The position numbers were made by a program, and so were the translations under genes. From positions 1 through 36,123 of the forward strand of contig DUEY01000047.1 in the NCBI GenBank assembly GCA_011174795.1: a stretch of DNA of 36,123 bases, written 5' to 3'. Source of the DNA: Dehalococcoidia bacterium (GTDB lineage Bacteria; Chloroflexota; Dehalococcoidia; SZUA-161). Under the pieces are notes generated by a model that had not been told where the DNA came from, made no database searches, and worked only from the letters and a program-made list of their open reading frames with translations. Positions 6,784 to 29,596 of the stretch are shown one piece after another (the first letter of the stretch is position 1; the number at the start of each line of letters is the position of its first letter).

Positions 6784-8202
6784 TTACCTCTTCTTCGCCT
6801 TTCCACGAAAGGCTTTCTTAGCCGGCTTGAATCCCCGGGCTTGTGCGATGTCTTCCGAGTCGAAGATTATGAGGTTCTCGGGCTGTATTCTCCTCAGCAT
6901 AGAGCTGTCAGCGCTATAGTATCTCTTTCTTTCCACGATCCCCTGGTGCCATTTTGAGCTTGCTATGTACCGCGGATGTATCTCGTGTTCACAGTAGACG
7001 CACCTCAGCGTCAACGGATTTTTCGACACTATCTGGAACCTGGGCTTGATGTACCGCGTCTCGGTCTCCTGCCTCGACACACAGTTCTTATTCAGGCATA
7101 GAAGCCCGGTGCTTCGTTTGTAAACCGTATAAGCCTTTTTTATTACCCGTGATGGACGTTTGCCCTCCGGGACAGCAGCCTGCTTAGCCCCGAGAAGAAG
7201 CGCTATCAGCGCCATCCTGATCGGCACCCCACGTTGTGCCTGTTTGAAGTACATGCTCCGCGGGTCAGCATCGATCTCATAGGCAAGCTCGTCGACACGG
7301 GGCAGAGGATGCATAACAATCGTCTCCTCGAATCGTTTTTCCCTGAGCAGTTTCTTATCAACGACAGGGTAGTACAATTCATCTCCACCCGCTCCGGCCT
7401 CAATCCTCTCCTTCTGAAGCCTGGTGACATAGAGGGCATCAACACCCTTCTCCATCTCGATTTGAATACCGACGGCGGGGATATTCGCCAGCTGATGAGG
7501 TCCGCTTGGCGTAATATATACGGCATCAAGGGGGAAAAGCCCCTCTATCTTCATATCCTCTGAGCCATTGTACCGTTCCAACATACCGCTATATTCTGTG
7601 GTCAGCTTCCTCACGACGTGCTCAGGCAACTCCAGCCCGGGGCTGGGGCGGAAATGGATGTCTGCGCCGAACCTCGCCAGGGCGTAGGCCAGAGAGTGTA
7701 CCGTGCGACCGTATTTCAAGTCCCCCCACAGGGCTATCTTCAACCCTTCAAGGGTCTGCCTCTCCTTCTTGAGCGTGTAGAGGTCGCACAGGGTCTGCGT
7801 GGGATGTTCATGCCCACCGTCGCCGGCGTTTATCACGGGGACTTCAGCGTAATCGGCAACAACCTGCGCCGCTCCTTCCCACGGATGCCTGATGACGATT
7901 ATGTCCGCGTAGCTTCCCACAACCCTCGCCATATCGGCGATACTCTCGCCCTTGGCCAGCGAGGTGTTGCTCATCTCCACGACTGATATCACCCTTCCCC
8001 CGAGCCGGTTCATCGCAGCCTCGAACGACAGCCGCGTCCTCGTGCTCGGCTCGAAGAACAGGCTCGCCATTACCATGCCCTGGCACAGGCCAGACTGCTT
8101 ACGTATCGAGCCAGCCATTTCGTCGGCCAAGGAGAGAACTGCCTCGATCTCCTGATTCGAGAAGTCATCTATCGTTATCAGGTCCCTATTCGCCAAGCTC
8201 AT
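6784..8202 (-). CDS. pyrB: Aspartate carbamoyltransferase with fused C-terminal PyrI-type zinc domain
   Basis: 472 residues; ordinary catalytic chains have about 310. Residues 1-338 are the catalytic chain: the carbamoyl-phosphate loop STRT at 53-56, HPWEG near 106, HPTQT near 133 and HPLPR near 298. The region around residues 230-252 looks longer than in the E. coli chain. After a basic linker, residues 369-404 carry CLNKNC and CVYC (Cys369, Cys374, Cys401, Cys404). This C-x4-C / C-x2-C spacing is that of the zinc domain of the PyrI regulatory chain. The PyrI nucleotide-binding allosteric domain is absent. About 68 further residues, ending in a very basic tail, have no recognised match. pyrB lies 7 nt after pyrR. 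It condenses carbamoyl phosphate with aspartate; the fused domain probably aids oligomer assembly. Confidence 0.94.
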   Translation of the reverse strand: MSLANRDLITIDDFSNQEIEAVLSLADEMAGSIRKQSGLCQGMVMASLFFEPSTRTRLSFEAAMNRLGGRVISVVEMSNTSLAKGESIADMARVVGSYADIIVIRHPWEGAAQVVADYAEVPVINAGDGGHEHPTQTLCDLYTLKKERQTLEGLKIALWGDLKYGRTVHSLAYALARFGADIHFRPSPGLELPEHVVRKLTTEYSGMLERYNGSEDMKIEGLFPLDAVYITPSGPHQLANIPAVGIQIEMEKGVDALYVTRLQKERIEAGAGGDELYYPVVDKKLLREKRFEETIVMHPLPRVDELAYEIDADPRSMYFKQAQRGVPIRMALIALLLGAKQAAVPEGKRPSRVIKKAYTVYKRSTGLLCLNKNCVSRQETETRYIKPRFQIVSKNPLTLRCVYCEHEIHPRYIASSKWHQGIVERKRYYSADSSMLRRIQPENLIIFDSEDIAQARGFKPAKKAFRGKAKKR

Positions 8203-28333: not shown

Positions 28334-29248
28334 TCAATAGGTGAACAGGGGCTGGTCTTTGGTGATAATCCGCTTCTCCCTCGCCATTTCCTCGCGTAGA
28401 TACTTGGGCACGGTGTACATCCCGCAGTGGGTGAGCCCGTCGTAGAAGCGGAGGGGCTTGCTCACCCGGCTCGAGAGCCTGCGGTCAACTTCCTCAGGAG
28501 ATAGTTCGCGCGGGTCTGAACCCTGCGAGGCCACGGCGAATCCCCAAGAGCCGCCGAAGGAAGGTATCTCCGCCTGGTAGGGAGCGACTACCGGGAACGC
28601 TGTACTCAGTGTATTCGCCACTGCGACAAAGCCAAATGAGATAACCATGCTCGTCGAGCCCGCCTGAAGTGCGACCACACCATCTGAGGTCAGCTTCTCC
28701 CTGAGGTCGTGATAGAACTCCCTGGTATACAGCAGGTAGGACGGCCCCTCCTCCAGAGGCTCGGTCAGATCGATAATGACAACGTCGAACTTCTCCTTCG
28801 TTTCCTCCAGATACTTCATAGCGTCGGTATGGAGAAGCTCAACCCGGCTGTCATCGAAAGCGCCCTGGCTCAGGGAGGGGAGGAATTCCTTACAGACGTC
28901 GACCACTTTCTTATCCAGGTCGACCATAACCGCCTTTTTCACGGTCTTGTGCGCCAGCACCTCCCTCAACGTAGCCCCCTCACCACCCCCGGCGATGAAA
29001 ACGGTCTCCGGCTGCGGGTGGGCGAGCATCGGGGGATGGACCAGCGCCTCGTGGTAGATAAACTCATCCGATTCGCTGCATTGAATCTTGCCGTCCAGTA
29101 TCAGGCATTTGCCGAAGCCCGGGGTATCGAGGATTTGAATGGACTGAAACTCCGATTCCCCATTATAGAGCACATCACTGATACTGAACTGCTGGATAAA
29201 ATGGGGAGTAACGTGCTCCGAAAACCACATCGTCGGTATATCTTTCAC
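28334..29248 (-). CDS. speE: Aminopropyltransferase (spermidine/thermospermine synthase family)
   Basis: 304 residues. It transfers an aminopropyl group from decarboxylated SAM to a polyamine. Motifs: substrate site SDEFIYHEALVHPP near 60-73, GGGEGATLREVL at 87-98, and IIDLTEPLEEGPSYLLYT near 158-175. Asp160 is kept, and Glu163 stands where classical SpeE has Asp (DxxDP). The GPSYLLYT continuation is closer to thermospermine synthase-like enzymes (ACL5, GPCYxLYT) than to spermidine synthase (GPAExLF). The acceptor is therefore open: putrescine, agmatine or spermidine. It follows the SpeD homologue by 3 nt and must share its transcript. Confidence 0.93.
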   Translation of the reverse strand: MKDIPTMWFSEHVTPHFIQQFSISDVLYNGESEFQSIQILDTPGFGKCLILDGKIQCSESDEFIYHEALVHPPMLAHPQPETVFIAGGGEGATLREVLAHKTVKKAVMVDLDKKVVDVCKEFLPSLSQGAFDDSRVELLHTDAMKYLEETKEKFDVVIIDLTEPLEEGPSYLLYTREFYHDLREKLTSDGVVALQAGSTSMVISFGFVAVANTLSTAFPVVAPYQAEIPSFGGSWGFAVASQGSDPRELSPEEVDRRLSSRVSKPLRFYDGLTHCGMYTVPKYLREEMAREKRIITKDQPLFTY

Positions 29249-29251
29249 TGG

Positions 29252-29596
29252 CTAGAAACCCCTCTTAAGCTCCACAATGGCAGGATTCTTACTCTCCAGC
29301 TTCTCCACCACTGATTTGGCTACTTCATCAGGGCGGAACGAGTCCCCATGGGTGAAAATGTCTATCGCCGCATACCCATATTCCGGCCAGGTATGAATAC
29401 AGAGATGGGCTCCGGTTATCAGTACCACGCCACTCAGACCCTGTGGTTCGAATCTATGGAATGAGTCCCCGATCACAGCGGTACCGGCCTCTCTTGCCAC
29501 TGAGAGGAGGACATCCTTGATGAAATCCATGTCATTCAGCAAATCGGGGTTGCAGTCCTTCAAATCCAGAAGGTAGTGTTTCCCCAGCGTGCCCAC
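29252..29596 (-). CDS. SpeD (AdoMet decarboxylase) homologue without pyruvoyl-forming Ser
   Basis: 114 residues, class 1B AdoMet decarboxylase fold from end to end (GKHYLLDL start, FHRFEPQGLSGVV, IHTWPEYGYAAIDIFT, ending KRGF). Active proenzymes cleave themselves at Glu62-Ser63 within xSESHLTIH, and Ser63 becomes the pyruvoyl cofactor. Here the sequence is ITGAHLCIH: Gly62, Ala63 and Cys66. The proton donor Cys83 is His83, while His68 and Ser55 remain. It cannot form the usual pyruvoyl group. It starts with GTG behind AGGAG and has its own promoter. It may be a regulatory prozyme-like partner, or it may use other chemistry. The fold call is secure; AdoMet decarboxylase activity is doubtful, hence no gene symbol. 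Confidence 0.9.
   Translation of the reverse strand: MGTLGKHYLLDLKDCNPDLLNDMDFIKDVLLSVAREAGTAVIGDSFHRFEPQGLSGVVLITGAHLCIHTWPEYGYAAIDIFTHGDSFRPDEVAKSVVEKLESKNPAIVELKRGF

Follow-up and report, generated by a model that had tools for sequence, protein, structure and literature searches.

A SpeD homologue without the pyruvoyl site, conserved in an uncultured order of Dehalococcoidia, and its possible part in a two-gene AdoMet decarboxylase

The window, the whole stretch of 36,123 nucleotides that was analysed, contains a SpeD homologue of 114 aa with GTG as start codon, and a polyamine aminopropyltransferase (APT) which begins after a gap of 3 nt (Table 1), the close coupling having been pointed out by the first-pass annotation. 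The SpeD homologue was identified in profile searches by Pfam AdoMet_dc (122 bits) and by NCBIfam TIGR03330 (122 bits, cut-off 75.65), the family profile of class 1b AdoMet decarboxylase (AdoMetDC). Its AF2 model had a mean pLDDT of 94.1, and the top PDB match was 1tmi, the S63A mutant of Thermotoga maritima SpeD, with a TM score of 0.93, so the fold is kept as had been claimed. The next structural match after the bacterial SpeDs was human spermine synthase (3c6k, TM 0.68).

Table 1. Features of the SpeD-APT locus on the window, and the decarboxylase genes beside the second SpeD in the sister family f2 (residues numbered as in T. maritima SpeD)
Feature	Position	Strand	Basis
Non-processing SpeD homologue, 114 aa, class 1b fold	29252..29596	(-)	ORF, Pfam, NCBIfam, AF2 model, PDB match
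Ser55, retained; equivalent of human Ser229	29432..29434	(-)	alignment; equivalence from PMC3975893
Codons 62-63, GGA GCC, Gly-Ala replacing Glu-Ser (pyruvoyl site lost)	29408..29413	(-)	
HTWPE 68-72, retained second half of active site (His68, Trp70, Glu72)	29381..29395	(-)	invariant in 16/16 orthologues
Codon 83, CAT, His replacing catalytic Cys	29348..29350	(-)	
Polyamine aminopropyltransferase of the thermospermine synthase / Thermus APT type, 3 nt after SpeD	28334..29248	(-)	NF002010, 301 bits, cut-off 260
PLP decarboxylases beside f2 paralogue	L162:3735-4853, L163:1727-2899, L164:1055-2185		

The pyruvoyl site read ITGAHLCIHTWPE in the window protein and ISESHLTIHTWPE in T. maritima, and FTHG was found at the place of FTCG. 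Alignment in T. maritima numbering, with which the window protein's own numbering coincides, agreed with the first reading of Gly62, Ala63 and His83 and of the retained Ser55 and His68, and added Trp70 and Glu72 to the residues that were retained. Compared with a class 1b SpeD such as T. maritima TM0655, the window protein has the same fold, length, APT operon and residues F49, S55, H68, W70 and E72, but is without Glu62, the pyruvoyl precursor Ser63 and Cys83, in which it resembles the non-processing mutant 1tmi. It is called the dead SpeD below, together with its orthologues.

The nearest solved relatives of the APT were thermospermine synthase (6bq2) and the Thermus enzymes 3anx and 1uir. 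When compared with APTs beside working SpeDs, its conserved columns were intact in the order to which the window belongs, with the exception of position 58, where Ser was changed to Cys in nine of 16 sequences, and one Thr/Ser swap. A switch of the APT to another donor was ruled out, these being the only differences at conserved columns. In G010, a genome of a third family, the APT was cut by the end of the contig. The order keeps an intact APT, yet the neighbouring gene which should supply its substrate is, judged by its residues, unable to form the pyruvoyl cofactor.

The two genes being 3 nt apart, the dead SpeD could serve the adjoining APT as a subunit for dimerisation or regulation. The parallel is the inactive AdoMetDC domain that human spermine synthase is said to carry (PMC5201418), that enzyme being the next structural match after the bacterial SpeDs. 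In both cases a dead AdoMetDC fold is associated with an APT; the human enzyme, however, is one fused chain with 18-20% identity, whereas separate ORFs were found here. Canonical SpeDs of other orders were equally near the same APT, so the adjacency is inherited. Moreover, almost no lineage-specific change was seen in the APT, His68, Trp70 and Glu72 would be needless for scaffolding, and the source of decarboxylated AdoMet would stay unexplained, which makes such a subunit unlikely, although with this structural neighbour and the adjoining APT gene it is still a serious rival.

Other genes of the window were also looked at. A 472-aa aspartate carbamoyltransferase (6784-8202, minus strand) had a C-terminal extension matching PyrI_C (39 bits), the regulatory chain's metal-binding domain, and is a PyrB-PyrI fusion without a recognised PyrI N-terminal domain. 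Between 10286 and 34125, five acyl-CoA dehydrogenase-like ORFs (13848, 16057, 27081, 31772 and 32869) and two CoA-transferase-like ORFs (10286 and 11534) were read from the sequence, and an amidohydrolase (12907) was identified by profile scan. These ORFs suggest a putative degradation cluster around the SpeD-APT pair.

Eighteen genomes of this one uncultured Dehalococcoidia order were compared, falling into the window's family (f1), a sister family (f2) and the third family (f3). An orthologue of the dead SpeD was found in 16 of them, nine in f1 and seven in f2. All nine f1 proteins had Gly62-Ala63, with His or Tyr at position 83; the f2 proteins had Gly62 and His or Gln at position 83, with Ser63 in six and Ala63 in G012. 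Gly62 was thus present and Cys83 absent in 16/16, whereas Glu62, Ser63 and Cys83 were all present in 89/89 aligned homologues from outside the order (Dehalococcoidia, Nitrospirota and others). In a FastTree phylogeny the SpeDs of the order formed a single clade (support 0.99), so that the changes define a clade, a check that the first-pass annotation had proposed. The f2 proteins were nested in it as a group (support 0.996) with G012 inside, hence at least two losses of Ser63 are probable, both of them later than those of Glu62 and Cys83. The six f2 SpeDs of seven which still have Ser63 may show residual Gly-Ser processing.

A loss of catalytic residues would by itself look like sequencing error or a decaying relic. 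However, the same substitutions were present in independent assemblies of 16 genomes from several projects (records of other projects included, L057-L061), pairwise dN/dS of the order's SpeDs was 0.03-0.16 and the APT was intact, and such an origin is hardly credible. As was argued at first reading, the residue changes are neither error nor decay, and the protein is under purifying selection. TIGR03330 is an equivalog profile and its cut-off is well exceeded, but annotation as AdoMetDC is wrong for the proteins of this clade by themselves. Low-scoring matches were checked for other dead SpeDs in the class (L182-L186), and all of them were canonical, paralogue-type, truncated or divergent. Two ORFs among them, L183 (116 aa, LETSHMCAHSWPE) and L186 (158 aa, LDSSHFSVHSYSD), are divergent SpeD-like proteins from other Dehalococcoidia families, without the usual Glu directly before Ser.

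Twenty-six positions were conserved in at least 97% of the 89 canonical SpeDs. Four of these were lost in the order (39, 62, 63 and 83), whereas positions 49, 51, 53, 55, 68-73 and 75 were invariant in 16/16, including F49, S55, H68, W70 and E72. Positions 60, 61, 63, 83 and 84 varied within the clade. Strands were predicted at 41-49, 53-60, 63-70 and 75-82 in the AF2 model, and this meander would put 41 near 61, and 63 near 82-83. In the model the lost positions 39, 62, 63 and 83 would share one end of the sheet and the kept substrate and processing residues 49, 55, 68 and 72 the other, a division that was drawn after the data had been seen. Human Ser229 and His243 come from the other half of the enzyme, in agreement with this strand geometry. 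They correspond to Ser55 and His68 and act on Ser68 (roles and Ser55 equivalence from PMC3975893).

The strong overall conservation, and Cys66 in 15/16 orthologues, could mean that the dead SpeD is itself catalytic by another route, for example with pyruvoyl made from another residue or with a cofactor-free chemistry. The new chemistry allowed for at first reading found no support, since position 83 (His, Tyr or Gln) and position 61 (Thr, Ser, Asn or Ala) vary as expected of a released site. The site residues 60, 63 and 84 also vary within the clade. Cys66, which had been listed as a peculiar addition, was also present in 13/89 canonical SpeDs and was missing in G014, and it was ruled out as a new cofactor residue. 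Catalysis by the dead SpeD on its own is therefore very improbable.

The search for a second Ser63-containing SpeD, which had been recommended, was successful. Contig 37 of the window's genome carried the one further PF02675 gene, which encodes AESHISVHTFPE and FSC and so has Glu62, Ser63 and Cys83; an agmatinase gene (TIGR01230, 251 bits) follows directly downstream of it. This setting matches the rule of Li et al. for SpeD-derived arginine decarboxylases (PMC10407285). The paralogue resembles the arginine and ornithine decarboxylases of SpeDA/SpeDC type in its agmatinase neighbour, Glu-Ser and Cys83 (PMC10407285), and its synteny points to arginine as substrate. The pyruvoyl serine and altered substrate pocket of that type were not found in the window protein, which has no serine and retains the AdoMet-type HTWPE. 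The paralogue was common across the class, usually adjoining agmatinase, and Glu62, Ser63 and Cys83 were kept in 46/46 sequences. No PF02675 protein other than the dead SpeD and the paralogue was found in the 18 genomes.

A canonical SpeD was accompanied by an APT match above 200 bits in almost every genome. Among the paralogue-only genomes outside the order, one of 29 had an APT match above 200 bits, and the SpeD of that one was a fragment at a contig end. Since paralogue-only genomes are almost always without APT, the paralogue does not normally act as an AdoMetDC by itself. Within the order it was present in 10/10 dead-SpeD genomes at least 85% complete, against 46/70 canonical-SpeD genomes, a comparison which is weak because the genomes are related; two dead-SpeD genomes of low completeness, G008 (70%) and G017 (53%), had none. 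A class 2 AdoMetDC (PF01536) gave no match in the order, and no control genome gave one either. Neither PF01276 decarboxylases nor agmatine deiminase (PF04371) were found in the order. PF02784 was represented by one protein in each f1 genome, presumably LysA, and by a second one in five f2 genomes.

In the sister family f2 the paralogue adjoined not agmatinase but a PLP decarboxylase of 373-391 aa (Table 1), which was claimed by no NCBIfam equivalog and was closest to lysine/ornithine decarboxylase (5gjm). Agmatinase was absent from the f2 genomes except for an unlinked one in G011. Thr69 was lost in 6/6 f2 paralogues and kept in 40/40 others, and additional losses were seen at F70 in two genomes and at E72, Y49 and P51 in one or two genomes each. 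Ser55 and His68 were still present in 6/6, and with these two residues the f2 paralogues may process as homodimers. The paralogue's own partner half is thus eroding in f2 while its cofactor half is intact, and the dead SpeD and the paralogue show complementary losses, the paralogue keeping the reverse set of residues. A natural experiment is provided by G012 (92% complete), which had an Ala63 SpeD, the PLP decarboxylase and an intact APT. Because its SpeD has Ala63, the paralogue is the only SpeD in that genome able to form pyruvoyl, with the APT present.

The f2 paralogue, with its altered motif and away from agmatinase, might be taken as the AdoMetDC of the order by itself, the dead SpeD then being an AdoMet-binding regulator or having an unrelated role. 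However, the f1 paralogues retain the class-wide motif and the agmatinase neighbour, and the changes in f2 lead away from the AdoMetDC motif HTWPE, so this explanation seems quite improbable.

It is known that bacterial SpeDs are half-enzymes which dimerise face to face, and that the eukaryotic enzyme consists of two fused halves, one of which makes pyruvoyl (PMC5201418, PMC10407285). In class 1b, two SpeD chains would be stacked in this way with each site shared, a picture which is in part established and in part deduced here, one chain giving Glu62, Ser63 and Cys83 and the other giving Phe49, Ser55, His68, Trp70 and Glu72. This chain-by-chain assignment is a putative one, based on PMC5201418, on the geometry of the strands and on homology with human AdoMetDC. 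With no cofactor and invariant partner residues, the dead SpeD would correspond to the silent half of the eukaryotic enzyme. In our reading, which we hold at even chances, the dead SpeD is the non-catalytic partner in a heteromeric AdoMetDC encoded by two genes. It would lend the pocket of AdoMet type and the residues for processing to the paralogue of contig 37, which bears the pyruvoyl, and the mixed dimer would produce decarboxylated AdoMet for the APT adjoining the dead SpeD. In f1 the paralogue alone would probably still decarboxylate arginine for the adjoining agmatinase. In f2 putrescine would come from the PLP ornithine-type decarboxylase instead, and the mixed enzyme may be all that the paralogue is still used for. 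The f2 pattern, with agmatinase gone, a PLP enzyme gained and the partner half eroding, supports the shared-site reading. More tentatively, the live paralogue might act on arginine as a homodimer and on AdoMet in a pair with the dead SpeD, and f2 might have an obligate two-gene AdoMetDC similar to an unfused eukaryotic one.

Like the eukaryotic class 2 AdoMetDC, this two-gene enzyme would have one pyruvoyl half and one silent half, and the losses in the window protein seem to follow the pattern of the silent half; unlike it, the two are separate genes here, and the live half is a paralogue of SpeDA/SpeDC type and no copy of the same SpeD. The SpeD-SpeDC fusions of Victivallis vadensis, with a degraded second domain, also combine live and dead SpeD-like halves for AdoMet decarboxylation, but their dead half is of SpeDC type and fused (PMC10407285), whereas here it is the SpeD and unlinked.

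The first-pass annotation had compared the protein with the AdoMetDC prozyme of trypanosomatids, a dead AdoMetDC paralogue retained beside a live one (PMC5201418). As an activator of this type, the dead SpeD would bind the live paralogue and turn it on allosterically without giving residues to its active site. Almost all genomes of the order contain both a dead and a live SpeD, and what stands of the comparison is an inactive chain partnering an active paralogue. The trypanosomatid pseudoenzyme, however, arose by recent duplication of a class 2 enzyme with a dimerisation domain and relieves autoinhibition by the N-terminus (PMC5201418); it works through an N-terminal extension and the dimerisation domain, both of which are missing from the bacterial enzymes. 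The window protein is a 114-aa class 1b orthologue in the canonical SpeD-APT position. By orthology it is the canonical SpeD of this very lineage that has gone dead, and a protein of SpeDA/SpeDC type is the sole live SpeD. Allostery alone also gives no account of invariant substrate and processing residues beside a drifting cofactor end, which suggests a shared site over pure allostery, and a prozyme-type activator is considered unlikely.

The prozyme has been found only in trypanosomatids (PMC5201418), and a literature search, mainly of open-access papers, brought up neither a bacterial SpeD that stands alone and does not process nor a SpeD heterodimer. Dead AdoMetDC partners as separate proteins have been described only in trypanosomatids, and the present case is bacterial and order-wide. 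The small size of both proteins makes the two-gene reading testable in E. coli. If it is true, the complementary loss of halves would show how a shared-site homodimer comes to be divided between one catalytic chain and one binding chain, a step that is presumed to come before the fusion seen in eukaryotes. On the more tentative reading with two substrates, one pyruvoyl subunit would serve two steps of the polyamine pathway, with a pseudoenzyme changing the substrate of its partner.
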